Below, piece after piece: positions 5,139-60,123 of a DNA stretch of 64,000 nt. Source of the DNA: Rhodanobacter glycinis (GTDB lineage Bacteria > Pseudomonadota > Gammaproteobacteria > Xanthomonadales > Rhodanobacteraceae). Below the pieces are notes generated by a model that saw only the letters and a list, made by a program, of their open reading frames with translations, had not been told where the DNA came from and did not search any database. The number at the start of each line of letters is the position of its first letter. Position 1 is the stretch's first letter. Made by a program: the position numbers and the translations under genes. The stretch is taken from contig NZ_FOSR01000005.1 of assembly GCF_900114325.1 (NCBI RefSeq), positions 186,001 through 250,000 on the forward strand, read 5' to 3'.

Positions 5139-5227
5139 CGGTAGGAGCCCGCTGGCGGGCGATGCTCTTGCTTTCCGTTTCGGGAAGCGCCAGAGCAAGA
5201 GCATCGCCCGCGAGCGGGCTCCTACCG
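5139..5227. repeat. REP-type inverted repeat pair (BIME-like), copy 1
   Basis: Two 33-34 nt arms, 5139-5172 and 5193-5227, are near-perfect inverted copies (one mismatch seen) separated by about 20 nt. The outer ends read GGTAGGAGCCCGCTGGCGGG and the complement, the head typical of REP elements in Pseudomonas and Xanthomonadales, each of which folds by itself (AGCCCGCTGGCGGGC). The pair lies between glpD and the EF-G-like gene, both reverse, so it could also protect mRNA ends or terminate transcription. Related copies lie at 24356-24433 and 60719-60799. Confidence 0.85.
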
Positions 5228-8607: not shown

Positions 8608-9031
8608 GCCCGTCATCCCGGCGAAAGCTCACTGCTGTCCGGAATAATTTTGAACCCTGTGGTTCCGCATGACTTGTACCGATACCGCACCCTCGCTCGT
8701 CATTCCGGCGCAGGCCGGAGGCGCCTTTCAACAGACGGCTGTCTGGTCATCCAGTAGCCGTATGGCTTGGACAGGCGTGATCGCTACTGGATCCCGGCCT
8801 GCGCCGGGATGACGAGCCGGAGAGGTGGTCGCTGCCAGAAATGGAGTCGTCCCCTTGTTGCATCTCGCGCAAGCGGCGCGGGTAGTCACTCTTGAAGGAC
8901 ATCCCAGGAATATTTCGGACAGCAGTGAGCGAAAGCTTGGATCCAGTGACTGTAATCTCTTGAATGCAAGGACGCTGGATTCCAGCTTGACCGGCCCTTC
9001 GGCCGTTGAGAGCCGCTGGAATGACAAGCAA
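8608..9031. repeat. Cluster of family B repeats (GTCATCCCGGCGAAAGCCGGGAT type)
   Basis: The 518 nt between the two paralogues hold no gene but a run of repeat copies. A degenerate copy starts at 8608. A well-formed nested palindrome spans 8695-8817: the outer arms read GCTCGTCATTCCGGCGCAGG and its counterpart ending in CCGGGATGACGAGC, and the inner arms are ATCCAGTAGC (8749-8758) and GCTACTGGAT (8783-8792). A third, decayed copy with GGATCCAGTGAC and GCTGGATTCCAGC covers 8938-9031. Other copies of family B lie at 19521-19607 and 42112-42140. The array could have been laid down when the two paralogues were duplicated or afterwards. Confidence 0.75.
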
Positions 9032-19454: not shown

Positions 19455-19492
19455 CCTCCTCCCCTGCAGGCAGGGGAGGATTGAGGAGGGGT
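19455..19492. repeat. Family A repeat, copy A1 (left arm of pair 1)
   Basis: CCTCCTCCCCTGC faces GCAGGGGAGG and is followed by ATTGAGGAGGGG, the layout shared by all family A copies (stem, then a GGGGTGAGGGG-like tail). It lies 27 nt after fumarase and could terminate its transcript. It faces copy A2 at 19635, with a family B palindrome in between. Confidence 0.75.
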
Positions 19493-19520
19493 CAACCACC
19501 CTCGCGCAACGCGTGTATCC

Positions 19521-19607
19521 CGTCATCCCGGCGAAAGCCGGGATCCAGTGCCTTTGCGCTTGGAAATGGCCTGAAGTCACTGGATTCCGGCTTTCGCTGG
19601 AATGACG
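19521..19607. repeat. Family B palindromic repeat, complete copy
   Basis: Two 30 nt arms, 19521-19550 and 19578-19607, are inverted copies with a few mismatches; the left arm starts CGTCATCCCGGCGAAAGCCG and reaches GGGATCCAGTG. Each arm has its own inner hairpin. The central 27 nt are unrelated to the arms. It sits inside family A pair 1, so one family has inserted beside or into the other. Confidence 0.85.
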
Positions 19608-19634
19608 ATAGGGACAGGGTCCTCGCAAGATTGG

Positions 19635-19673
19635 CCCCTCACCCCAGCCCTTTCCCCGGAGCGGAGAGGGAGT
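19635..19673. repeat. Family A repeat, copy A2 (right arm of pair 1)
   Basis: The sequence starts CCCCTCACCCCAGCCCTTTC and ends in GGAGAGGGAGT, the reverse orientation of A1. It matches A4 (22879-22918) and A9 (52156-52193) almost base for base, including the terminal GGGAGT. It is 13 nt upstream of the palindromic operator-like site of lysAC. Confidence 0.8.
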
Positions 19674-19786: not shown

Positions 19787-22402
19787 GTGACCTCGAATGC
19801 CCTTGCGCCGCTTTCCGCCGGCGCACCCTGGATCGTGATGAAGTTCGGCGGCACCAGTGTCGCCACCCTGCCGCGCTGGCAGAACATCATGGAGCTGGCT
19901 GCCTCCCGTCGTGCCGAAGGCGCGCGCGTGGTGATCGTCGTCTCCGCGCTGTCCGGCATCACCGATGCGCTCAAACAACTGTGCGCACAGGGCGACAAGG
20001 GCAAACGCATCGAATCCGCGCGGGCCATCGAGCAGCGCCATTACGAGTTGCTGGACCATATGGGACTGGCCGTGCCGGCCACCTTGGAGGCTCGCCTCAA
20101 GGATTTGCTGGCGCTGGCCGAGACCGGTTCGGCGAAGCTGGGCGAACTGGCCTGGCAGGCGCAGGTGCAGGCGCACGGCGAGCTGCTTTCCAGCACGCTG
20201 GGCGCGGCCTTCCTCACCCATAGCGGCTTGCCCACGCAGTGGGTGGACGCGCGCGACTGCCTGTCCGCCATCGCGCTGCCCAACCAGAACGAGCGCACCA
20301 AGCTGCTTTCGGCGATGGTCGAGACCAAGCCCGATCCGGCACTCAGTGACCGCCTCGCTGCGCTGGGCGACGTGTTCATCACCCAGGGTTTCATCGCCCG
20401 CGAGAGCGAAGGACGCACGGTGCTGCTCGGTCGCGGCGGCTCGGATACCTCGGCGTCCTACTTCGGCGCCTTGCTGCGGGCGCTGCGGGTGGAGATCTGG
20501 ACCGACGTGGCCGGCATGTTCACCGCCAATCCGCGCCAGGTATCCGGTGCGCGGCTGCTGCAGAAACTGGATTACGAGGAGGCCCAGGAAATCGCCTCCA
20601 CCGGCGCCAAGGTGCTGCATCCGCGTTGCCTGTCGCCATTGCGCGAGTCGCGCGTGCCGCTGCTGGTGAAGGACACTAACCGGCCCGAGCTGGAAGGCAC
20701 GGTGATCGGCCCGCAGGTGCGCGAGCACGCGCCCAGCGTCAAGGCGGTCAGCGCGCGCAAGGGCATCACCCTGATCTCGATGGAATCGGTGGGCATGTGG
20801 CAGCAGGTCGGCTTCCTGGCCGACGTGTTCGCGCAGTTCAAGCAGCACGGCCTGTCGGTGGACCTGATCGGTTCGGCCGAAACCAACGTCACCGTGTCGC
20901 TCGATCCCACCGAAAACCTGCTCGATTCCGACGCCATTGCGGCCCTGGCCGGCGACCTGGCCAAGGTGTGCCGGGTCAAGGTGATCGCGCCGTGCGCGGC
21001 GATCACCCTGGTCGGGCGCGGCATGCGTTCGATGCTGCATACCTTGTCCAGCGTGCTGGCCGAGTTCGACCAGTTGCGCGTGCACCTGATCTCGCAGTCG
21101 TCCAACAACCTCAACCTCACCTTCGTGGTGGACGAGGATGTGGTCGACACGCTGATCCCGCATCTGCACGAATTGCTGATTTCCGCCGGTGCACTGCGCA
21201 CCGACGACAGCGCGCTGTTCGGGCCTAGCTGGCAGAGTCTGTACGGCAGCGGCGACGTGGTCCCGTCGACTGCGTGGTGGCGTGACGGTGCGCAGCGCCA
21301 GCGCCTGCTCGACATCGCCGCCGAAGCCACGCCGCGCTATGTCTACCACCTGCCGACGGTGTGCAGGCAGGCGCGGGCACTGAAGTCGCTGGGCGCGGTC
21401 GATCGCGTGCACTACGCGGTGAAGGCAAACACGCATCCGGCGATCCTGCGTGCCCTGGTGGACGAAGGCTTCGCCTTTGAATGCGTGTCGCCGGGCGAGC
21501 TGGATGCGGTGACGGCGGTGGTGCCGGAAAGCGTGCCGCTGTTGTTCACGCCCAACTTCGCCTCGCGCGGGGATTTCGAGCGTGGGCTGGCCACGCGCGC
21601 CACCATCACGCTGGATGCGTTGCATCCGATCGAGCACTGGGGCGAACTGTTCCGTGGTCGCGAAATTTCCTTGCGGGTCGACCTCGGCCGCGGCCTGGGT
21701 CATCACGAAAAGGTTCGCACCGGTGGCAGCGGCAGCAAGTTCGGCCTGCCGATCGAGCAGCTTGACAGCTTTCTGCGCCACGCCGACGCGCATGGCGTGA
21801 TCGTGCGTGGCCTGCACGCGCACCTGGGCTCGGGCGTGCTCGATGCCAACCATTGGGGCGAGGTCTATGGTCAGCTCGCCAGTCTGGCCGAGCGCATCGG
21901 CAGCATCGCCTTCCTCAATATCGGTGGTGGACTTGGCGTGCCATCGCACCCGGGCGAGTCCAGCCTGGACATCGGCGAACTGGACGCGGTGCTGCGCCAG
22001 GTCAAGGCGGCCTATCCGCACTACCAGTTGTGGATGGAACCGGGCCGCTACCTGGTGGCCGATGCCGGCGTGCTGCTGACCCACGTCACCCAGACCAAGG
22101 GCAAGGGCAGTTGGCGTTATCTGGGTGTGGACACCGGCATGAATAGCCTGATCCGCCCCGCGCTGTACGACGCCTGGCACGAAATCGCCAATCTCACCCG
22201 TCTCGACGAGCCGGCCACCGCGTTGTTCCAGGTGGTGGGACCGATCTGCGAAAGCGGCGACGTGCTGGGCAGCGACCGCCGCCTGCCGGAGCCGCAGGAA
22301 GGCGACGTGATCCTGGTCGCCCAGGCCGGTGCCTACGGCAAGGTGATGTCCTCGCCGTACAACCTGCGTGGTGATACCGAGGAAATCGTGCTGGACGACT
22401 GA
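19787..22402 (+). CDS. lysAC: Bifunctional aspartate kinase / diaminopimelate decarboxylase
   Basis: This 871-residue fusion carries the first and last steps of lysine synthesis. The N-terminal aspartate kinase phosphorylates aspartate (KFGGTS at residues 19-24, GGSDTSA, ARLLQKLDYEEAQEIASTGAKVLHPR in place) and ends in two ACT regulatory domains (about 320-470). The C-terminal half is a PLP-dependent decarboxylase that converts meso-diaminopimelate to L-lysine: the Schiff-base lysine is K546 in HYAVKAN, followed by ECVSPGEL, GSGSKFGLP, HLGSGV, NIGGGLG, EPGRYLV and the substrate Cys in GPICESGD. The start is GTG 19787, because an internal ATG would remove part of the kinase strand. The fusion is characteristic of Xanthomonadales. 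Confidence 0.95.
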   Translation: MTSNALAPLSAGAPWIVMKFGGTSVATLPRWQNIMELAASRRAEGARVVIVVSALSGITDALKQLCAQGDKGKRIESARAIEQRHYELLDHMGLAVPATLEARLKDLLALAETGSAKLGELAWQAQVQAHGELLSSTLGAAFLTHSGLPTQWVDARDCLSAIALPNQNERTKLLSAMVETKPDPALSDRLAALGDVFITQGFIARESEGRTVLLGRGGSDTSASYFGALLRALRVEIWTDVAGMFTANPRQVSGARLLQKLDYEEAQEIASTGAKVLHPRCLSPLRESRVPLLVKDTNRPELEGTVIGPQVREHAPSVKAVSARKGITLISMESVGMWQQVGFLADVFAQFKQHGLSVDLIGSAETNVTVSLDPTENLLDSDAIAALAGDLAKVCRVKVIAPCAAITLVGRGMRSMLHTLSSVLAEFDQLRVHLISQSSNNLNLTFVVDEDVVDTLIPHLHELLISAGALRTDDSALFGPSWQSLYGSGDVVPSTAWWRDGAQRQRLLDIAAEATPRYVYHLPTVCRQARALKSLGAVDRVHYAVKANTHPAILRALVDEGFAFECVSPGELDAVTAVVPESVPLLFTPNFASRGDFERGLATRATITLDALHPIEHWGELFRGREISLRVDLGRGLGHHEKVRTGGSGSKFGLPIEQLDSFLRHADAHGVIVRGLHAHLGSGVLDANHWGEVYGQLASLAERIGSIAFLNIGGGLGVPSHPGESSLDIGELDAVLRQVKAAYPHYQLWMEPGRYLVADAGVLLTHVTQTKGKGSWRYLGVDTGMNSLIRPALYDAWHEIANLTRLDEPATALFQVVGPICESGDVLGSDRRLPEPQEGDVILVAQAGAYGKVMSSPYNLRGDTEEIVLDD

Positions 22403-22406
22403 GCCC

Positions 22407-22504
22407 GCGATTTTCTCCCTCTCCCCTCTGGGACGCGGGGAAGGGCCATGGATGGCCCTGCTCTGAGGAGCGAGGAAGAGGGTTGGGGTGAGGGGCGGGT
22501 GCTC
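22407..22504. repeat. Family A repeat, copy A3 (left arm of pair 2, expanded)
   Basis: The copy starts TTTCTCCCTCTCCCCTCTGG and ends AGAGGGTTGGGGTGAGGGGC, with a longer loop than other copies that itself contains GGGCCATGGATGGCCC. It directly follows the lysAC stop and faces copy A4 across the DUF559 pseudogene. The tail GGGTGCTCGC after it is shared with copy A8. Confidence 0.75.
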
Positions 22505-22538
22505 GCAACGGAGTAACCAAGAAAGCGAGGCTTCAAGG

Positions 22539-22919
22539 ATGAAGCGCCTGAACGTGGAGCGGGCACGAGATTTACGGGTGAGTCAGACGAATGCCGAGCA
22601 GCGTCTCTGGCACCACCTGCGCAACCGTCGCCTGCAAGGTTGAAAATTCCGCCGCCAGCAAGAAATCGACCGCTACATCGCCGATTTTGTCTGTCCGGAT
22701 GCGGGCTTGATCGTTGAACTGGACGGCAGCCAGCATGACGAACAGGTGGCATATGACGAGGCGCGCACCCGAAAGCTGCACACCATGGACTACCGAGTGC
22801 TGCGTTTCTGGGACAATGAAGCACTGACTAATATCGAGGGCGTGCTCGAGGTGATTCTGGAGGCCTTGGCAAGTCCGGCCCCTCACCCCAGCCCTCTCCC
22901 CGGAGGGGAGAGGGAGTAG
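22539..22919 (+). pseudogene. DUF559 (Vsr-like endonuclease fold) gene with an in-frame stop
   Basis: The frame from ATG 22539 reads as a DUF559 protein: NAEQRLWHHLRNRRL, then a TGA at 22641-22643, then KFRRQQEIDRYIADFVCPDA, VELDGSQH (the ELDG..H catalytic-type motif) and YRVLRFWDNEAL. Intact members of this family read G-F or G-W before KFRRQ at this point, so a sense codon mutated to TGA. About 127 codons in all, normal for the family. The last 15 codons and the TAG stop are supplied by family A repeat A4, so the protein end PAPHPSPLPGGERE is repeat-encoded. DUF559 proteins resemble very-short-patch-repair endonucleases; the cellular role is not established. Confidence 0.85.
22879..22918. 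repeat. Family A repeat, copy A4 (right arm of pair 2)
   Basis: It starts CCCCTCACCCCAGCCCTCTC and ends GGAGGGGAGAGGGAGT, inverted relative to A3. It overlaps and closes the DUF559 reading frame. The murL start lies 26 nt further on. Confidence 0.85.
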
Positions 22920-22944
22920 GGCATGCGGAGTATCGAGAGTGACA

Positions 22945-24342
22945 ATGACCATCCAACCGCGCCTGACCCAGGTGTTTCGTTTCCTGCATGCACGCTACGC
23001 CGATGGCGTGGCCGAGCTGGCTTACGCCTTCGACGACGGCGAGCCGCTGGTGGAACGCATCCGCTTTCCGAACGCGCCGGCTGTGCCGGCTGCGCGGCAG
23101 GGGGCGTTCGATGCCGCGCTGAAACTGCTGCACCTGGTCGCCGGCGTCAGCTATTACAAGGCCGGCGTGCCACCGAAGATCGAGCTGGCCGACGGTCCGC
23201 TGGACGGCGCCACGGCCCATCTGGTCGAGGCGCTCTACTTGCACGGTCTGGCCGAGTTCGCTTATCGCAACGGCCTTGACCTGCGTGGCCGCATCAATTT
23301 CCCGCGAAGCACAATATCTTCCTCTCTCCTCCGGGGAGAGGGTCGGGGTGAGGGGTCAACCTCGCCGGGCGTTGAAAAGAACGCGGCCCCGGTTCTGGGC
23401 CTGCCCAAGCGCACCCTCGTCCCCATCGGCGGCGGCAAGGATTCCCTCGTCGCAGTGGAGGCGATCAAAGCCATCGGCGGCGAAGCCACGGCGGTATGGA
23501 TCGGCAATTCGCCGCTGATCGCTGCCTGCGCCGAGCGCACCGGCCTGCCCATGCTGAACATCCAGCGCGAGCTGGCACCGGAATTGTTCGAGCTGAACCG
23601 GCTGGGCGCGTGGAACGGACATATCCCGGTGACGGCGGTGAATTCGGCGATTCTTGCCGTGGCCGCGATTCTGTACGGCTACGACTCCATCACCTTCGCC
23701 AACGAGCGCTCCGCTTCGGCCGCCACGCTGGAGTACGAAGGCCAGCAGGTGAATCACCAGTGGAGCAAGGGCTACGCGTTCGAGCAACTGCTGGGCGATT
23801 GGCTGCACTCGCACGTGGCCGCCGACCTCGATTACTGCTCGCTGCTGCGGCCGTACTCGGAGCTGGCGATCACCCGCGCGTTCGCCAGGTTGACGCCATA
23901 CTTCGACGCGTTCTCCAGCTGCAACCGCAACTTCCGCATCCTCGGCCCGAAGCCTGCTGACCGCTGGTGCGGCCAATGCCCGAAATGCCACTTCGTGTTC
24001 CTGGCGCTGGCGCCGTTCCTGCCCAAGCCGCGGCTGTTGTCGATCTTCGGTCGCAACCTGCTGGATGACGAATCGCAGGCCGCCGGTTTCGACGCGTTGC
24101 TGGAATACCAGGACCACAAGCCGTTCGAATGCGTGGGCGAGGGTGCCGAGGCGCGTGCGGCCATGTACACGCTGAGCCAGCGGCCGGAATGGCAGGAAGA
24201 CGCATTGGTCGCACGCTTCCGTGACGAGATCCTGCCGCAGCTCGATGCCGCGCAGCTGGCGCTGGAACCGTGGCTGGAGCCGTCTGCCGAACATCGCGTG
24301 CCGGCACGGTTGCAGGCGGCGCTCAAGGCCATCGACGCATGA
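22945..24342 (+). CDS. murL: UDP-MurNAc-L-Ala-L-Glu epimerase MurL, with an in-frame repeat insertion
   Basis: MurL turns UDP-MurNAc-L-Ala-L-Glu into the D-Glu form using ATP, replacing glutamate racemase; it was described in Xanthomonas with MurD2. The 465-residue protein carries a PP-loop-like motif VPIGGGKDSLVAVEAIK (about 160), WIGNSP, GHIPVTAVNSAILAVAAILYG, FANERSAS, EGQQVNHQWSKGYAFE, and the Cys pair in RWCGQCPKCHFVF. Between GRINFP and LGLPKRTLVPIGGG the frame runs through family A copy A5, adding about 25 residues (about 122-148) rich in Ser, Gly and Arg. Start ATG 22945 is preferred to GTG 22939 two codons upstream. murD2 follows after a REP pair. Confidence 0.9.
   Translation: MTIQPRLTQVFRFLHARYADGVAELAYAFDDGEPLVERIRFPNAPAVPAARQGAFDAALKLLHLVAGVSYYKAGVPPKIELADGPLDGATAHLVEALYLHGLAEFAYRNGLDLRGRINFPRSTISSSLLRGEGRGEGSTSPGVEKNAAPVLGLPKRTLVPIGGGKDSLVAVEAIKAIGGEATAVWIGNSPLIAACAERTGLPMLNIQRELAPELFELNRLGAWNGHIPVTAVNSAILAVAAILYGYDSITFANERSASAATLEYEGQQVNHQWSKGYAFEQLLGDWLHSHVAADLDYCSLLRPYSELAITRAFARLTPYFDAFSSCNRNFRILGPKPADRWCGQCPKCHFVFLALAPFLPKPRLLSIFGRNLLDDESQAAGFDALLEYQDHKPFECVGEGAEARAAMYTLSQRPEWQEDALVARFRDEILPQLDAAQLALEPWLEPSAEHRVPARLQAALKAIDA
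23321..23355. repeat. Family A repeat, copy A5, inside murL
   Basis: CCTCTCTCCTCCGGGGAGAG followed by GGTCGGGGTGAGGGG is the family A unit. It lies wholly within the murL coding region and keeps the reading frame, encoding SLLRGEGRGEG. It has no facing partner within murL. Confidence 0.85.
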
Positions 24343-42068: not shown

Positions 42069-42531
42069 GCGTGGGCTTCCATGGGAGGAGCGTGCTTCGC
42101 ACGAGTATTCGACTGGATTCCGGCCTGCGCCGGAATGACGGTGAGGGGTGTGGTGCGTGAATCGAGATTGGAGCGGTTCGGCTGCACGGAGAAAAGCTGG
42201 GAGTGGCAGCTGACGGCAGCCCCTCTCTTGCCTCGGTTATCGGTGACGGCGCGGTGTGGCCGTCGGTGTAACAAGAGGAGCCGCGCCATTTCCAAAAAAC
42301 CTTGACCGTCAAGGCTTGTAGGGTCGGCGGGTTCCATCAGGCCATTTCTCTGGGTTACTTCTCTTGACTCCGGGCATCCTGCCCTTCGCCCTTCGGGCCA
42401 GTTTCGCTGTTTGCTACCGCTCCAGGCGGTAGCGTGGGCCAGCAAAGAAAGGTGGCTCGCTGGCCGGCAGGGCAGCGAAAGCCCGCCGCAGGCGAGCAAT
42501 CTAGCGTCCACGCCAAAGCCAGCAAAACAAG
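42069..42531. repeat. Repeat-filled gap between tamA and tamB
   Basis: No gene is present. A half copy of family B (ACTGGATTCCGGCCTGCGCC then GGAATGACG) lies at 42112-42140 and continues into GGTGAGGGG, a family A-like tail. At 42330-42530 lies a different unit: TTTCTCTGGGTTACTTCTCT (42343-42362), a perfect hairpin GCTACCGC (42413-42420)/GCGGTAGC (42426-42433), then GGCCAGCAAAGAAAGGTGGC. I have seen units of this kind in related genomes and treat it as a third repeat family. Confidence 0.65.
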
Positions 42532-47798: not shown

Positions 47799-47811
47799 CA
47801 TGTCGGGCTGC

Positions 47812-50800
47812 ATGAATACGAAGCCCGACGCCAACGCCCGAACCGCCACCGATCCCCGCCTGCGCGAGATGCGTCGGGCGCTTGATGGCGTGTGCAGTCG
47901 CGACTTCGGACGCCTGCTGGGGCGGTGGCGCGGGCTGTCGAAGCGCCCCGACGACGCCAGGCTGGCGGCGCTGGGTATCGATATCGAGGCTTCCGCGGCC
48001 AAGCGCCGCGCGCGGGTCGAGGCGAAGCCGGCGATCCGGCTGGACGAATCGCTGCCGATCACTGCGCGTGCCGACGACATCGTCAAGCTGATCCGCGAGC
48101 ACCAGGTCGTGGTGATCGCCGGCGAGACCGGTTCGGGCAAGACCACCCAATTGCCCAAGCTGTGCCTGGCCGCCGGTCGCGGCGAAGCCGGTCTGATCGG
48201 TTGCACCCAGCCACGCCGCTTGGCTGCACGTTCGGTGGCACGCCGGGTGGCCGAGGAGCTGGGCACCCAGTTGGGCGAGCAGGTGGGTTTCCAGGTGCGC
48301 TTCACCGATCAGGTGAGCGAGCGCACGCTGGTGAAGTTCATGACCGACGGCATCCTGCTGGCCGAGACGCAGGGTGATCCGTGGTTGTCGGCCTACGACA
48401 CGATCATCATAGACGAAGCGCACGAGCGCAGCCTCAACATCGACTTCCTGCTCGGCTATCTGAAACGGCTGGCGTTGAAGCGGCCGGAGCTGAAGATCAT
48501 CGTCACCTCGGCCACGATCGACACCGCGCGTTTCGCCGAGCATTTCGGCGACGCGCCGGTGGTGTCGGTGGAAGGGCGGGCGTATCCGGTGGAGTTGCGC
48601 TGGCGACCGGTGGATGGGCCGGCGACGCCGGGAGGCGAGGTGGTGTCCGCGCCCGCGAAGGGCGGTCGCGGGCAGGGTGCGTCATCGCGGCAGGGCATGC
48701 AGCAGGGCAGCGCCGAACACGTGGCTGCCGTGCTCGACGAGATCATCGCCGACCGCAGCCTGGGCCATGGCCCGGGTGACGTGCTGGTGTTCCTGCCCGG
48801 CGAGCGCGAGATCCGCGACGCGCATCTGCTGCTGTCGCGCCGGCAATACCGCGAGACGGAAATCCTGCCGCTGTACGCGCGACTGTCCGCCAGCGAACAG
48901 GATCGCGTGTTCAAGCCCGGTCCGAAGCGGCGCGTGGTGCTGGCCACCAACGTCGCCGAGACCTCGCTCACCGTGCCGCGCATCCGTTACGTGGTCGACA
49001 CCGGCAGCGCGCGCGTCAAGCGTTACAGCCAGCGCAGCCAGATCGAGCGGCTGCACGTGGAGTCGGTGTCGCAAGCCGCGGCGGATCAGCGCAAGGGCCG
49101 CTGCGGTCGCATCGGCCCGGGCATCTGCTATCGCTTGTACGACGAGGCCGACTTCGACGCGAGGCCCGAATTTTCCGATCCCGAGCTGCTGCGTTCCTCG
49201 CTGGCCAACGTGATCCTGCGCATGCTGGCGCTGAAGCTGGGCGAGGTCGACGGCTTTCCGTTCCTCGACGCGCCCGATCCGCGCGTGGTGGCGGATGGCT
49301 ACCGGCGCCTGGCGGAAATCATGGCGATCGACGAGCAGCGCGTGCTCACGCCGATCGGGCGCATGCTGGCGCGGTTGCCGATCGACGTGCAGCTTGCGCG
49401 CATGCTGGTGGAAGCGGAAAAGCTGGGAGCGCTGCGCGAACTGCTGGTAGTGGTGGCTTTCCTCAGCATCCAGGACCCGCGCGAGCGCCCGGCCGACGCC
49501 CGCCAGCAAGCCGATGCCGCGCATGCCGCTTTCGCCGATCCGAAGTCCGATTTCGCGGGTGTGCTGAACCTGTGGCGCGATTATCACGCCGCGCACGAGG
49601 AGTTCACCCAGTCGAAGTTGCGTGACTGGTGCTCACGCCACTTTCTCAGCTTCATGCGCATGCGTGAGTGGCGCGAGCTGCATCGGCAACTGTTGCTGGT
49701 GGTGAAGGAGTTGGGGTGGTCGAGCTCTGCTCCCTCTTCATCGCGGGGCGGTGATGCTGTTTCTCCCTCTCCCCTGCGGCGAGAGGGCCGGGGTGAGGGG
49801 CCACGCTCGCGAAGCGCTGGCAGGAACAAGCGTGCTTCGCATGAGCGCTCTGGCAAGCACCCGCCCCTCACCTCAATCCTCTCCCCAACGGGGAGAGGAG
49901 GCGAAGGCGAAGAGCGCGTTGTTGATCAACAGGCTGCGGCGGACCACCTCTTCGAGACGATCCACCGCTCACTCTTGGCCGGCCTGCCGACCCAGGTCGG
50001 CCGCAAGGACGAGCGCGGCGTCTACCAGGGCACGCGCGAGCGCAAGTTCCAGGTGTTCCCCGGTTCGGCCTTGTCGAAAGTGCCGCCGAACTGGATCTTC
50101 TCCGCACAGATCCTCGACGTGGGCGGCAAGGTCTGGGGCATGGCCAATGCGCGGGTCGAGCCGGTGTGGGTCGAGCAACAGGCGGCGCACCTGCTGCGCA
50201 TGTCGTGCCGCGATGCGCACTGGTCGAAAAAGCGCGGCTGCGTGGTGGCCTACGAGCAGGTCAGCCTGTTCGGTTTGACCCTGGTCGAACGCCGGCCGGT
50301 GACATTCCAGAAACAGGACCCCGCGCTGGCGCATGACATCTTCCTGCGCGAAGCGCTGGCGCGTGGCGATATCGATTCAAAGGCCGATTTCGTGCGCGCC
50401 AACCAGCGCGTGCTGGAGGATGCCCGCGGCATCGAGGCGAAGCAGCGTCGCGAGGGTTTGATTCGCCACGAGGACGAACTGGTCGATTTCTTCCGCGGCA
50501 AGTTGCCGGAGGACATTGCCAGCAGTCGCGGGCTGGATGCGTGGTATCGCAGTGCACGTCCCGCCGAGCAGGCCGCGCTGCGCTGGTCGCTGGACGACGT
50601 GATGGCGGGTGGCGCCGGGCTCGATCCGAAGGCTTTCCCGGCGATGCTGGACATCCAGCCGGCAGGCAACAAGGTGACGGCGCAGCGCTATCGCCTCGAA
50701 TACCGTTTCGTGCCTGGCGACGAGGCCGATGGCGTCACCTTGCACCTGCCGCTGGCGATGCTCAATGCGCTGCCAGCGGCGCGTTGCGAATGGCTGGTGC

Positions 50801-51993
50801 CGGGCTTGCTGGCCGACAAGGTGGCCGAGCTGATCCGCGGCCTGCCCAAGGCGCTGCGCCGCAACTTCGTGCCCGCGCCGGATTTCGCGCGGGCTTTCGC
50901 CGAGGCAGAGGCGTCGCGCGACGAGCCGCTGACCAAGGCGCTGGCCACGTTCCTGAAGCGTGCCACCGGCGTGGATATCGAGGCGGGCGAATTTGCCGCC
51001 GTCGAGCTGGCGCCGCATTTCCGCATGCGTTTCCGCCTGCATGACGACAATGGCCGTACGCTGGCGGCGGGTCGCGATCTGGCCGCCTTGCGTGCGCAAT
51101 GGGAAGGCCAGGCGCGCGAGGCGTTCTCGCGCAAGACCGACGTGGAGCTGACGCGCGAAGACGTGGCCAGCTGGGATTTCGAGGAGATTCCGCGCGACGT
51201 GCGTTCGTCCGGTGGCCTGCTGGCTTTCCCCGCGCTGGTCGATCTCGGCGAGACGGTAGCGCTGCGCGTGTTCGAGCGCCGCGACGAGGCGGCCGAGGCG
51301 CATGTCGCCGGCGTGCTGCGCCTGTTGCGCAATGCGCTGGCCAGCGACCTGAAGCAGGCGCGCCGACGCTTGCCGATCGGCAACCCGCTGGCGCTGAAGT
51401 ACGCGCCGCTGGGTGGCGTGGATGGCCTGCGCGAAGACCTGGTCGAAGGCGGCGTTGCCGACATGATGGCGCGGCTCGATCTCGATGTGCGCACGGCTGG
51501 CGCGTTCGAAGCCTTGCATGCGCAGGCCTCGCGCGAACTGTTCGGCGCTGCGGTGGAGCGGCTGAAACTGGCCGAGCCGATCATCGAAGCGCAAGCCGAA
51601 TTGAAGCCATGGCTGGAACCTCCGCTGATCGGCTTTGCCCGCGCCAGCTATGACGACTTGCGCGAACAGCTCGACGTATTGCTCGCGCCGGGCCTGCTGC
51701 GCGAATTGCCGCCGGCGCGGCTGGCGCACCTGCCGCGCTACCTCAAGGCCATGCGCTTGCGTGCCGAGCGCCTGCGCCAGGATCCGGCGAAAGACCAGCA
51801 GCGCATGCTGCAGGTCATGCCGTACTGGCGTGAGTATCTGCAGCACCGCGCCGCCGGTGACGAAGGCCTGGATGAACTGCGCTGGCTGATCGAGGAATGG
51901 CGCGTGTCGCTGTTCGCGCAGGAACTGAAGACCGCCGAGCCGGTGTCCGCGAAGCGTCTGGCAAAAGCCAGCGCTCTTATAAAACCAGCCTAG
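47812..51993 (+). CDS. hrpA: DEAH-box RNA helicase HrpA with in-frame repeat insertion
   Basis: HrpA is an ATP-dependent RNA helicase that rescues stalled ribosomes and processes mRNA. The 1393-residue protein carries GETGSGKTTQLPK (Walker A), IIIDEAHERSLNIDFLL, VTSATIDTARFAEHF and QRKGRCGRIGPGICYRLY, followed by the HA2, OB-fold and DUF3418 parts. Between KELGW and AADHLFETIHRSLLAGL the frame runs through two facing family A copies (49761-49900), adding about 65 residues (roughly 638-703) of SSSAPSSSRGG...RREGRGEG...SPTGRGGEG type. ATG 47812 is used; ATG 47800 would add four residues. Expected length without insertion is about 1325. Confidence 0.93.
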   Translation: MNTKPDANARTATDPRLREMRRALDGVCSRDFGRLLGRWRGLSKRPDDARLAALGIDIEASAAKRRARVEAKPAIRLDESLPITARADDIVKLIREHQVVVIAGETGSGKTTQLPKLCLAAGRGEAGLIGCTQPRRLAARSVARRVAEELGTQLGEQVGFQVRFTDQVSERTLVKFMTDGILLAETQGDPWLSAYDTIIIDEAHERSLNIDFLLGYLKRLALKRPELKIIVTSATIDTARFAEHFGDAPVVSVEGRAYPVELRWRPVDGPATPGGEVVSAPAKGGRGQGASSRQGMQQGSAEHVAAVLDEIIADRSLGHGPGDVLVFLPGEREIRDAHLLLSRRQYRETEILPLYARLSASEQDRVFKPGPKRRVVLATNVAETSLTVPRIRYVVDTGSARVKRYSQRSQIERLHVESVSQAAADQRKGRCGRIGPGICYRLYDEADFDARPEFSDPELLRSSLANVILRMLALKLGEVDGFPFLDAPDPRVVADGYRRLAEIMAIDEQRVLTPIGRMLARLPIDVQLARMLVEAEKLGALRELLVVVAFLSIQDPRERPADARQQADAAHAAFADPKSDFAGVLNLWRDYHAAHEEFTQSKLRDWCSRHFLSFMRMREWRELHRQLLLVVKELGWSSSAPSSSRGGDAVSPSPLRREGRGEGPRSRSAGRNKRASHERSGKHPPLTSILSPTGRGGEGEERVVDQQAAADHLFETIHRSLLAGLPTQVGRKDERGVYQGTRERKFQVFPGSALSKVPPNWIFSAQILDVGGKVWGMANARVEPVWVEQQAAHLLRMSCRDAHWSKKRGCVVAYEQVSLFGLTLVERRPVTFQKQDPALAHDIFLREALARGDIDSKADFVRANQRVLEDARGIEAKQRREGLIRHEDELVDFFRGKLPEDIASSRGLDAWYRSARPAEQAALRWSLDDVMAGGAGLDPKAFPAMLDIQPAGNKVTAQRYRLEYRFVPGDEADGVTLHLPLAMLNALPAARCEWLVPGLLADKVAELIRGLPKALRRNFVPAPDFARAFAEAEASRDEPLTKALATFLKRATGVDIEAGEFAAVELAPHFRMRFRLHDDNGRTLAAGRDLAALRAQWEGQAREAFSRKTDVELTREDVASWDFEEIPRDVRSSGGLLAFPALVDLGETVALRVFERRDEAAEAHVAGVLRLLRNALASDLKQARRRLPIGNPLALKYAPLGGVDGLREDLVEGGVADMMARLDLDVRTAGAFEALHAQASRELFGAAVERLKLAEPIIEAQAELKPWLEPPLIGFARASYDDLREQLDVLLAPGLLRELPPARLAHLPRYLKAMRLRAERLRQDPAKDQQRMLQVMPYWREYLQHRAAGDEGLDELRWLIEEWRVSLFAQELKTAEPVSAKRLAKASALIKPA
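49761..49800. repeat. Family A repeat, copy A6, inside hrpA
   Basis: The unit begins TCTCCCTCTCCCCTGCGGCG and ends GAGAGGGCCGGGGTGAGGGG. It lies in the hrpA frame and encodes SPSPLRREGRGEG. It faces A7 at 49863 across a 62 nt spacer. Confidence 0.87.
49863..49900. repeat. Family A repeat, copy A7, inside hrpA
   Basis: The copy begins GCCCCTCACCTCAATCCTCT and ends CCCCAACGGGGAGAGGAGGC, inverted relative to A6, and is read in frame as PLTSILSPTGRGGEG. A6 and A7 with spacer make one pair; hrpA remains open. Confidence 0.87.
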
Positions 51994-52057
51994 CCGAAGC
52001 CTCTTCGCACAAGTTGCGGCAGGCTTGCCCGATCGCGAACCCGTCCGGCCCGATTGC

Positions 52058-52094
52058 CTCCTCTCCCCTTCGGGGAGAGGATTGAGGTGAGGGG
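52058..52094. repeat. Family A repeat, copy A8 (left arm of the pair after hrpA)
   Basis: TCCTCTCCCCTTCGGGGAGA plus GGATTGAGGTGAGGGG is the canonical layout. It is followed by GTGGGTGCTCGCGACAGCC, close to the flank of A3. It lies about 65 nt after the hrpA stop and may also terminate that transcript. Confidence 0.85.
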
Positions 52095-52155
52095 TGGGTG
52101 CTCGCGACAGCCTCAAATCGAAGCGTGCCCTGAAACAAGGCTTCCGCGAGGTTGG

Positions 52156-52193
52156 CCCCTCACCCCAGCCCTCTCCCCGGAGGGGAGAGGGAG
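52156..52193. repeat. Family A repeat, copy A9 (right arm of the pair after hrpA)
   Basis: CCCCTCACCCCAGCCCTCTC and GGAGGGGAGAGGGAGT match copies A2 and A4 nearly base for base. It ends 13 nt before the stop of the reverse small-protein gene. Spacer between A8 and A9 is 61 nt, the same as in the hrpA pair. Confidence 0.87.
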
Positions 52194-52206
52194 TAAACCT
52201 CGCCAC

Positions 52207-57723: not shown

Positions 57724-60123
57724 GTGGCATTCATCCGCGCGCCGGGTAGGTGGTCCTATGATCGAGTTGTTGTCTCACCGGATATCCCCACGTTGGCCTT
57801 TCTGACCCGAACCCGAGCCGCCGTCCGCGCCAGCTGGCCGTGGCTGCGCGTTCCCTTCTGGATTGCCCTCGGCCTGTTCTTCGGCTTCCTGTTGCCGTAC
57901 ACGCTGGTACTCAACAAGCGCGTGCAGGATCGCTTCGAGGACTTGGTGTTCGCCGTGCCCACGCGCGTCTTCGCGCGGCCACTGCCGCTGGCGGCGGGCG
58001 AGCCGATGACATCGGCGGCGCTGAAGCTGGAGCTGACTTTCGCCGGTTACAGCGATGACGGCCACGGCGAGGTGCCGGGCAGTTGGACCAGCAAAGGCTC
58101 GACCTACGTGATTTCCTCACGCGGCTACGTCGATCCCGATGGTGGCGAGTTGCCCAAGCGCATTCGCGTGACGCTGGGCAAGGGCGATATCGCTTCGGTG
58201 CGCGACGCGGCCAGCAACAAGCCGATCAAGCTGACCCATCTCGATCCGGCACGCATCGCGACGGTGTACGGCGCCAAGCAGGTGGATCGCCGCATCGTGC
58301 ATCTGGCCGACGTGCCGCCGTTGCTGGTCAGCGGCCTACAGGCGGTGGAAGACCGCAGCTTCAAGAACAACATCGGCATCGATTTCACGGCGATCCTGCG
58401 TGCGGCCTTCGCCGATCTGCGCGCGGGGCATTCGGTGCAGGGTGCCTCGACGCTGACCCAGCAACTGGTGCGCAACCTGTTCCTGAGCCGGCGCCAGACC
58501 TTCACGCGCAAGTTCAACGAAGCGCTGATGTCGATCCTGCTGGACTTCCACTACAGCAAGGGCCGCATCCTCGAGGCTTACGTCAACGAGGTGTTCCTCG
58601 GCCAGCAGGGCAACCAGGCGGTGCACGGCTTCGCGGCGGCCTCGGAGTTCTACTTCGGTCGCCGGCTGCAGGATTTGCGTCCGCAGGAAATCGCCATGCT
58701 GGTCGGCATGGTGAAGGGGCCGAGCTACTACGATCCGCGTCGCTATCCGAAGCGTGCGCTGGCGCGTCGCAACCTGGTGCTGCAGGTGTTCGCCACCACC
58801 GGGTTGCTGACCCCGGCGCAGTCCCAGGCCGCGCAGGCGACGCCGCTGGATCTGGTCAGCAACGGCCAGTTGCCGCACAACCGCTTCCCGGCCTTCATGC
58901 AGCTGGTACGCGCGCAGATCACCAACGATTTCGACGGGGATACCTTGCGCAAGGGCGGCCTGTCGATCTACACCACACTCGATCCGGCCGCGCAGCTGTA
59001 TTCGGAGCAGGCCATCGACCAGACGATGAAGAGCCTGGGCAAGCGTGCCAACGGCGTGCAGGCGGCCGGCGTGGTCACCGACTCGCAAACCGGCAGCGTG
59101 TTGGCCGTGGTTGGCAGTCGCACGCCGGGCGACCAGGGTTTCAACCGTGCGCTGGATGCGCGGCGGCCGATCGGCTCCACCATCAAGCCGTTCGTCTACC
59201 TGGTGGCGCTGACCAATCCCTCGCGCTGGAACCTGGCGACGGCGCTGGACGACAGCCCGATCAACCTGCGCCAGCCCGACGGCACGATGTGGACGCCGCA
59301 CAACGACGACAACCAGAGCCACGGCATGGTGCCGATGGTCGATGCGTTGGCGCATTCGTGGAACCTGGCCAGCATCCGCCTCGGCATGACCGTGGGCTTG
59401 TCGCGCATCCAGGCGTTCCTGAAATCGTTCGGGCTGGATGATGTCAGTCCCGGCCCGTCGCTGCTGATCGGTGCCATCGACCTGGCCCCGATCCAGGTGG
59501 CGCAGATGTACGAATACCTTGCCTCCGACGGTCACGCCCTGCCGCTGCTGGCGGTGCGTGGCGTGGTCGATGGCCATGGCCAGACCATCAAGCGTTATGA
59601 AGTGCGCAGCGGCAAGGGCGAATACCAGGAAGCGGTGCGCCTGATCACCTGGGCAATGCAGCAGGTGGCGGTGTACGGAACGGCGCATTCCATCGGCGAC
59701 TCGGGCCTGGCGTGGCTGCACGCTGCCGGCAAGACCGGCACCAGCAACCAGATGCGCGACAGCTGGTTTGCGGGCTTCACCGGCGACCGTCTGGCGGTGT
59801 TCTGGATGGGCCGCGACGACAACAAGCCGACCACGCTGTTCGGTGCCAGTGGCGCGCTGCGCGCCTGGCGTGACCTGTTCGCCAAATTGCCCACCGAGCC
59901 GCTGTCGCCCGCGCCGGGCCAGGGCCTGCAGATGGCCTGGATCAATCCTGCCGACGGCAAGCCCACCGAGCCGCAGTGCGAAGGCGCCAAGCAGGTGCCG
60001 GTGGTCGCCGGATCGCTGCCTGCCGATACCGAAGGCTGCTTCTGGCAGCGCATCGGCAACATGTTCGGTGGCGGGTCGAATACACCGGCTCCCGCTACAC
60101 CACCCGCTTCCGGAAACCCGTGA
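57724..60123 (+). CDS. mrcB: Penicillin-binding protein 1B (bifunctional transglycosylase/transpeptidase)
   Basis: This 799-residue class A PBP polymerises and cross-links peptidoglycan. A membrane anchor (about 42-66) is followed by a UB2H-like domain (about 80-185), the GT51 domain with AVEDRSFKNNIGIDF (catalytic Glu near 209) and GASTLTQQLVRNLFLS, and the transpeptidase domain with the active Ser in RPIGSTIKPF (near 485), AHSWN (second motif) and KTGTSNQMRDSWF (near 670). The start is uncertain: GTG 57724 is used, and TTG 57793 (23 codons in) would be nearer the usual PBP1b N-terminus. The next gene starts 2 nt after its stop. Confidence 0.94.
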   Translation: MAFIRAPGRWSYDRVVVSPDIPTLAFLTRTRAAVRASWPWLRVPFWIALGLFFGFLLPYTLVLNKRVQDRFEDLVFAVPTRVFARPLPLAAGEPMTSAALKLELTFAGYSDDGHGEVPGSWTSKGSTYVISSRGYVDPDGGELPKRIRVTLGKGDIASVRDAASNKPIKLTHLDPARIATVYGAKQVDRRIVHLADVPPLLVSGLQAVEDRSFKNNIGIDFTAILRAAFADLRAGHSVQGASTLTQQLVRNLFLSRRQTFTRKFNEALMSILLDFHYSKGRILEAYVNEVFLGQQGNQAVHGFAAASEFYFGRRLQDLRPQEIAMLVGMVKGPSYYDPRRYPKRALARRNLVLQVFATTGLLTPAQSQAAQATPLDLVSNGQLPHNRFPAFMQLVRAQITNDFDGDTLRKGGLSIYTTLDPAAQLYSEQAIDQTMKSLGKRANGVQAAGVVTDSQTGSVLAVVGSRTPGDQGFNRALDARRPIGSTIKPFVYLVALTNPSRWNLATALDDSPINLRQPDGTMWTPHNDDNQSHGMVPMVDALAHSWNLASIRLGMTVGLSRIQAFLKSFGLDDVSPGPSLLIGAIDLAPIQVAQMYEYLASDGHALPLLAVRGVVDGHGQTIKRYEVRSGKGEYQEAVRLITWAMQQVAVYGTAHSIGDSGLAWLHAAGKTGTSNQMRDSWFAGFTGDRLAVFWMGRDDNKPTTLFGASGALRAWRDLFAKLPTEPLSPAPGQGLQMAWINPADGKPTEPQCEGAKQVPVVAGSLPADTEGCFWQRIGNMFGGGSNTPAPATPPASGNP

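Follow-up and report, generated by a model that had tools for sequence, protein, structure and literature searches.

The window, a stretch of 64,000 nucleotides from Rhodanobacter glycinis (contig NZ_FOSR01000005.1, positions 186,001 to 250,000), holds a small gene of the DUF559 family between two copies of a repeat that face each other. The gene (22539–22919, plus strand) matches PF04480 and encodes a putative Vsr-like nuclease. Upstream lies a fusion of an amino acid kinase and a pyridoxal-dependent decarboxylase (19787–22402, plus strand; Pfam matches), which we take to be an aspartate kinase/diaminopimelate decarboxylase. The downstream neighbor (22939–24342, plus strand) has no Pfam match and is presumably MurL-like. 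The gap between these two genes is called site 1 here. No methyltransferase match was found among the neighbor genes scanned at site 1. The left repeat copy (22412–22510, minus strand) and the right copy (22858–22918, plus strand) both point their hairpins outward; they were identified with an nhmmer profile and in the sequence itself. An earlier reading of the window, made from its letters alone (the sequence-only reading), had already described facing copies of this repeat, its family A, around the gene, and the profile search agrees with it.

The core of the right copy (from approximately 22877) codes for the end of the DUF559 frame and its stop. The last 14 codons and the stop are repeat sequence (PAPHPSPLPGGERE followed by the stop); the sequence-only reading had given the last 15 codons. 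In the left copy, the loop is enlarged and contains a second small hairpin. This long-loop form at site 1 is also present in G007, G010, and G013, and a short form is found in G003, G004, and G006.

The DUF559 frame carries an in-frame TGA at codon 35 (22641–22643), which the sequence-only reading overlooked. Because of this stop, the window copy looks like a pseudogene. The part 3′ of the TGA is open from a TTG at 22707. The PF04480 match in the window is a fragment of 60.9 bits (the curated cut-off is 20.6), and the whole frame, with its one internal stop, scores 135.4 bits. Relatives at site 1 without a stop in the domain exist, for example L032, L033 (Rhodanobacter fulvus), and L083. The rest of the genome has a single further PF04480 match, which is weak and lies within a 2248-codon frame.

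Another single copy of the repeat (23316–23367, minus strand; profile match), also overlooked in the sequence-only reading, is in frame inside the downstream gene, in a linker. Among orthologues of this MurL-like protein (L088–L113), several genomes encode in-frame repeat peptides in the linker, seemingly of differing repeat types, and others encode none.

Identity of the repeat

The repeat consists of a pyrimidine stem, a loop, a purine stem, and a purine tail. Judged by eye on its sequence, it is the E. coli motif known as BoxC, the PIT element, or the triplex motif (TM). The window copies show a CCCTCTCCC-type stem, a short loop, GGGAGAGGG, and the purine tail GGGGTGAGGG, as compared by eye with the E. 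coli table in the accessible part of PMC4666352. According to that part, E. coli K-12 has 23 copies of the motif, and it occurs in more than 260 genomes. It has been linked there to local genome instability, with neither the mechanism nor a mobility gene being known, and the surroundings of the E. coli motifs yielded no activity that would confer mobility. In the same table, four of the five close pairs stand in the facing order seen here, with spans of 85–100 bp (order read from the coordinates). The sequence layout is shared with the E. coli motif, whereas the E. coli motif is reported without a nearby mobility gene and the repeat described here brackets a DUF559 nuclease gene. In a literature search that left most subscription papers outside its reach, we found no link between DUF559 or ycjD and BoxC.

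The genome of the window has 30 exact BoxC cores. Two other kinds of palindrome were observed in the window. A 34-nt inverted repeat at 5139–5227, 97% complementary and starting with CGGTAGGAGC, looks like a GTAG-type REPIN, so that GTAG-type and BoxC palindromes may coexist in this genome. A further palindromic family of the GTCATCCCGGCGAAAGCCGGGATCCAGT type is present at 19521–19607, 8684–8719, and 42112–42154, and is probably family B of the sequence-only reading.

Bracketing of DUF559 genes in the order

We searched 61 genomes of the order of the window with PF04480 and added named loci, which resulted in 74 loci. Seven were dropped (three duplicates of the same contig and four at contig edges), leaving 67. 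We left out weak PF04480 matches, most of which lie in large frames, as well as two mirror-image matches on contig C44 of G007. That contig looks palindromic, with DUF559 matches at 115 (minus) and 181623 (plus) and at 58764 (minus) and 122977 (plus), and is probably an assembly artefact. Nine short loci and the window itself were replaced by longer stretches of the same places. The seed alignment of the repeat held one antisense row (L010), giving a few spurious antisense matches; the best strand was used.

Facing copies flank the gene at both ends in 44 of the 67 loci. Ten loci have the right copy only, two have the left copy only, and 11 have none. Of 2877 pseudo-positions obtained by shifting within these loci, none was bracketed by facing copies, and one was bracketed in any orientation; the profile was refined on the loci that were counted, and the same profile served for the control. 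The expectation that DUF559 genes are associated with facing family A copies, and lie nearer to them than chance would place them, is thus borne out, and the shifted positions make chance bracketing very improbable.

The geometry is fixed. All 54 loci with a right copy have one in plus orientation, and 46 of the 48 loci with a left copy have one in minus orientation. There are 38 intact genes with a right copy. One of them stops short of the repeat core, four stop inside the repeat, and 33 continue past it, eight of these ending more than 100 bases after the core start. The reading frame enters the right copy in 37 of these 38 genes when counted from the core, and in 36 when counted from the start of the profile match. 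In one locus of Dyella ginsengisoli (L043, 5851–7251), the DUF559 frame passes through BoxC without a stop into a downstream gene similar to aminoacyl-tRNA synthetases, presumably EpmA-like.

Facing pairs without a gene

The window also contains facing BoxC pairs without a gene between them. One (49760–49817, minus; 49847–49902, plus) is in frame inside a 1397-codon gene (47800–51993) that we take to be HrpA-like. A second (52055–52116, minus; 52138–52196, plus) lies just after this gene. The profile matches reproduce, within a few bases, the two pairs of the sequence-only reading (49761–49900 and 52058–52193), which did not note the in-frame position of the first. A third pair had been proposed at 19455–19673. 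Here the right half is a full copy (19618–19673, plus; profile), but its partner was not detected in the repeat profile search. Read by eye, the left half is a variant BoxC-like hairpin with a tail (19455–19497, minus; CCTCCCCTGC..CAGGGGAGG), and another palindrome lies between the two halves of this mixed-type pair. In-frame repeats such as those at 22939–24342 and 47800–51993 can be set beside the Rickettsia palindromic elements, by description only; these are palindromic repeats that lie in frame within protein genes.

The facing layout around the DUF559 gene is mostly shared by gene-less clusters. We inspected 40 loci around BoxC sites of the congeners G007 and G010, and 22 of these have at least two copies near the center. 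In 20 of the 22, a minus copy is followed by a plus copy (L291 and L299 differ; four sites were counted in both genomes). Of the pairs in the 1397-codon gene and its orthologues, five have a span of exactly 143 bp. In an alignment of 27 orthologues, the length of the gap at this position is always divisible by three. Repeats of different types occupy this place in G007 and G010, which are close relatives.

Gene-less pairs were compared over 20 to 60 kb stretches in seven congeners, and at four G007 sites with two to seven congeners each; eight G007 sites entered the comparison, and four were aligned. Many gene-less sites are common to the whole genus. At these four G007 sites, repeats are present in some congeners and absent in others, and site occupation thus differs within the genus. 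In the congeners compared, where the spacers are too diverged, neither a target duplication, a direction of change, nor a clean junction was found at gene-less sites.

Flanking repeats across the Pseudomonadota

We also selected 67 loci from 299 Pseudomonadota genomes. The program chose 27, and 40 were picked by hand from its list, so that the sample favors strong DUF559 matches. Inverted repeats between the two flanks score at least 23 at 27 of these loci; the other 40 have none reaching this score. By comparison, 335 mismatched flank pairs gave a 99th percentile of 22.3 and a top score of 28. The repeats vary by lineage in the 19 loci with inspected flanks, and the plan of a hairpin plus a tail is kept in many. 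At L188, L165, and L166, from some families of another class, the stem and tail of the BoxC-like unit are separated by a second, variable hairpin.

We counted two variants, T2 and T3, across 60 genomes picked by hand. Three genomes contain T2 (6, 3, and 7 copies, flanking ones included), and these are the three in which T2 was seen flanking DUF559. T3 occurs in ten genomes of one family only, with up to 174 copies; four genomes of this family lack it. For these two variants, the repeat type at the gene and the type found genome-wide agree. There are exceptions to this pattern for T3. G272 has 14 T3 copies and no DUF559 match. Among five T3-flanked genes with inspected flanks, the repeat is on both sides in L180 only, and upstream only in L131, L140, L176, and L177. 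The T3 pairs listed mostly run plus then minus, which is the opposite of the bracket.

Co-occurrence of BoxC and DUF559

An exact BoxC core, a criterion that passes over decayed and variant copies, is present in 32 of the 299 Pseudomonadota genomes. Of these 32, 26 have a strong DUF559 match (E < 1e-12), compared with 60 of the other 267 (Fisher 8e-11, which ignores phylogeny). When the DUF559 labels were shuffled 5000 times within families, a partial control for phylogeny, the count averaged 18.8 and never exceeded 24, against the 26 observed. At the level of families, 14 have both, three the repeat only, 12 DUF559 only, and 45 neither (Fisher 7.7e-6, again ignoring phylogeny). The six core-bearing genomes without a strong match are G078, G091 (25 copies), G144, G229, G299, and G301, and the 60 genomes noted above have a strong match and no exact core. 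Among the 61 relatives, a strong match is present in 22 of 23 repeat-bearing genomes and in nine of the 38 others. In G012, a congener with a single contig, only a fragment of DUF559 is present, an exact core is missing, and 60 kb gave no repeat-profile match of at least 15 bits. The count with the reversed pattern as a control was 0 in every row listed.

Abundant repeats could come to lie beside the gene by hitchhiking or through base composition. Some genomes are indeed rich in the repeat (220 exact cores in G035). Such an artefact has next to no chance of being the explanation, since shifted positions are never bracketed by facing copies, orientation and distance are fixed, similar flanks with different repeat sequences recur in several families of the phylum, and the reversed pattern gives 0 in every row listed.

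The enzyme

Structure prediction from nine loci gave models with a mean pLDDT of 75. The best fold matches are 3hrl (NGO0050), I-Bth0305I, and Vsr, with Foldseek E values of 8.5e-5 for I-Bth0305I (3r3p) and 1.8e-3 for Vsr. The sequence profile matches 3hrl strongly (4.9e-39) and I-Bth0305I (3r3p) weakly (E 0.0011). The predicted models thus show a Vsr/PD-(D/E)XK-like fold of the EDxHD kind for DUF559, and the catalytic domain is homologous to that of an EDxHD homing endonuclease. Across 116 domains, with two of the 67 phylum loci left out of the count because of a stop or short length, E15 is conserved in 115, D57 in 116, and H61 in 114. Going by the name of the EDxHD family, these three residues are presumably catalytic.

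I-Bth0305I and Vsr have their fold in common with DUF559, and I-Bth0305I a weak sequence similarity as well. Unlike those of I-Bth0305I and Vsr, the DUF559 gene lies outside an intron, has no methyltransferase match in the scanned site-1 neighbors, and is flanked by palindromic repeats. NGO0050 (3hrl) and YcjD are likewise DUF559 proteins, with no BoxC link in the published material on them as far as examined. YcjD has been placed in the PD-(D/E)XK superfamily (PMC1189080, in part). In the accessible part of PMC12907096, VsrA, a DUF559 protein of Caulobacter and a predicted mismatch-repair endonuclease, is required for a DNA-damage response in cells without a cytosine methyltransferase. In a light look for a role in defence, the best PADLOC match was 2.5e-5 (DpdF), and NCBIfam antiphage_ProA gave 1.7e-4.

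The ycjD gene of E. coli

E. coli K-12 has a gene annotated as DUF559, ycjD (NC_000913.3, 1351407–1351760). Read by eye, the last codons of ycjD and its stop fall within a BoxC-like sequence that is 12 bases shorter in K-12 and whole in strain Q65. With the profile, the K-12 sequence at the ycjD end gives only a weak match (7.1 bits, E 0.0054). Approximately 170 bases further on there is a second, clear BoxC (29.0 bits), and the profile found no left copy at ycjD. A DNA search with the gene of another genus had matched only part of the query, at hemW among the matches listed, as if E. coli were without DUF559; ycjD overturned this.

The ycjD region was found at a coverage of at least 80% in 3362 of 5426 E. 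coli genomes. Both of the ycjD-less records that we opened widely have an efflux operon in its place, and the part of PMC12817139 available to us describes one E. coli site with ycjD or the eef operon as alternatives. These are alternative contents and not a filled and an empty state, and the site is thus no demonstration of insertion.

Inheritance of the DUF559 gene

The same few chromosomal places are occupied recurrently: site 1 (22 loci), site 2 (16), site 3 (5), site 4 (4), four pairs, and singletons, with duplicates included. The gene tree follows these sites. Seven label changes are needed against a minimum of four; shuffled labels need 26.6 on average, and none of 200 shuffles was as low. 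The 13 rows of site 1 need two changes and so do the 11 rows of site 2. Median dN/dS values of 0.19 (site 1) and 0.16 (site 2) indicate purifying selection. Genomes with DUF559 have one to seven matches in the set of 61, and copies from one genome (for example, G010 or G014) fall in different parts of the tree and not as near-identical sets. The gene is broken or partial in 17 of the 67 loci.

At site 1, 30 orthologous loci contain full elements, 3′-end remnants, or gene-free gaps. Remnants of DUF559 were read by eye in G014, G012, G023, and G036. In the gap of G014 (L097), a GTAGGAGC-type palindrome lies beside the remnant, the rest of the element being lost. No clean empty site or junction was found among these 30 loci, and the gene-free gaps share no recognisable intergenic sequence. 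The refuting conditions set out in the sequence-only reading gave a divided answer. The closeness of gene and repeat held up; in the comparison of empty sites, the gene decays in place and the gene-less pairs turn over, with no insertion junction that can be read for them. Clustering by site together with decay in place argues for vertical inheritance with decay and against active transposition of the gene. As judged from these sequences, the DUF559 gene appears to be inherited vertically and not to multiply, as is expected of a RAYT-like gene. Spread on plasmids was considered and rejected, with relatives in 44 of 72,556 plasmid records, several of chromosome size.

In its full form, the model of the sequence-only reading makes the gene-bearing unit a transposable element that is active, with the short pairs as its internally deleted forms. 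The terminal facing repeats, the gene-less forms, and the presence of the gene at several different chromosomal sites fit such an element. We nevertheless consider it very improbable, because the copies cluster by site (two label changes each at sites 1 and 2) and decay in place, and the copies of one genome are spread over the tree without being near-identical.

A homing-like process deserves more weight and is still distinctly unlikely in our view. The enzyme would cut alleles that lack the cassette, repair would copy the BoxC-bounded gene in, and gene-less pairs would be former homing sites minus the gene. By sequence and fold, I-Bth0305I, a homing endonuclease of a phage intron, is among the nearest enzymes whose function is known. 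The site-1 remnants in four genomes, the recurrence of a few occupied sites across several genera, and the E. coli site with its alternative contents (PMC12817139, in part) could also be accommodated. However, the gene tree clusters by site, no clean empty allele was found, and homing by itself would not make dozens of gene-less pairs at unrelated sites.

A proposed two-part system of nuclease and repeat

The bracketing suggests that the enzyme spreads or maintains BoxC. We propose that DUF559 and BoxC form a two-part system similar to REPIN/RAYT, in which a Vsr-like nuclease takes the place of the HUH transposase, and we regard this proposal as evenly balanced between right and wrong. The DUF559 gene would be a sedentary, mostly vertically inherited gene for a nuclease of the Vsr/EDxHD fold, held between facing BoxC copies, and the dispersed gene-less facing pairs would be the units that multiply. 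The nuclease would recognise the BoxC hairpin or triplex and cut or nick at the BoxC end. BoxC pairs would then be copied, moved, or converted by repair or replication. Both the action of the enzyme on BoxC and the movement of BoxC are what we infer from the associations described above. Of the sequence-only reading, the REP/RAYT-like system with a Vsr-like nuclease is thus retained as the best model, and the gene-bearing unit as an active mobile element is not.

Several features are shared with REPIN/RAYT systems. These also combine dispersed pairs in inverted order with a vertically inherited gene, present once and close to repeats of its own type, and they have fewer repeats where the gene is absent (PMC8049555 and PMC3116915, each in part). 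The DUF559 gene is likewise flanked by its own repeat, and the same type is dispersed mostly as inverted pairs; this applies to the canonical repeat, and with exceptions to T2 and T3. The REPIN/RAYT enzyme, in contrast, is an HUH Y1 tyrosine transposase, and DUF559 is a PD-(D/E)XK/Vsr-like nuclease. By eye, no GTAG or CGTC tag was seen at the palindrome in the BoxC copies read. Because this enzyme class and the GTAG tag are absent, the system does not belong to the RAYT family.

Several observations count against the two-part system. Association alone does not establish that the enzyme acts on BoxC, and the copy in the host of the window is broken. Readthrough of the TGA or an enzyme acting from elsewhere aside, the 30 exact cores of this genome would therefore be relics today. 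No movement was observed, and the sites compared yielded neither a target duplication nor a clean insertion junction. In addition, 11 of the 67 loci of the order are unbracketed, 40 of the 67 phylum loci have no flanking inverted repeat scoring at least 23, six of the 32 core-bearing genomes lack a strong DUF559 match, 60 genomes have such a match and no exact core, T2 is rare, G272 has T3 and no DUF559 match, T3 is on both sides of only one of the five inspected genes, the order of the T3 pairs listed is mostly opposite, and ycjD has no left copy.

The enzyme might also bind or process BoxC for a purpose of the cell, such as autoregulation, the formation of transcript ends, or the repair of forks stalled at triplexes. 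BoxC would then spread by other means, and the bracket would be a pair of operators or terminators. We think this unlikely, although it is the likeliest of the alternatives. It would suit the fixed position of the right copy at the gene end, the purifying selection, and the clustering by site. The VsrA-dependent response to DNA damage in Caulobacter (PMC12907096, in part) also speaks for it, and the accessible part of PMC2869309 states that palindromes of Enterobacter 638 are often at gene ends, where they are presumed to act in termination. A cellular purpose leaves unexplained, however, why the dispersed repeat type matches the type at the gene and why gene-less clusters have the facing geometry, and PIT elements are reported in the part of PMC4666352 seen to have neither promoter nor terminator activity.

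BoxC has long been known, its spread has been unexplained, and it brackets DUF559 genes in many kinds of bacteria. In a wider form of the two-part proposal, for which the chances fall just short of even, DUF559 nucleases would be the agents that spread and renew BoxC/triplex repeats in Pseudomonadota. They would constitute a second, independently evolved REPIN-like system, with a nuclease recognising an intrastrand triplex or hairpin and with ycjD as a member. If true, this would be a nuclease-based counterpart to the transposase-based REPIN systems. The tie of BoxC to one small nuclease family offers a possible function for a widespread DUF, and, through ycjD, a testable agent in a laboratory organism.
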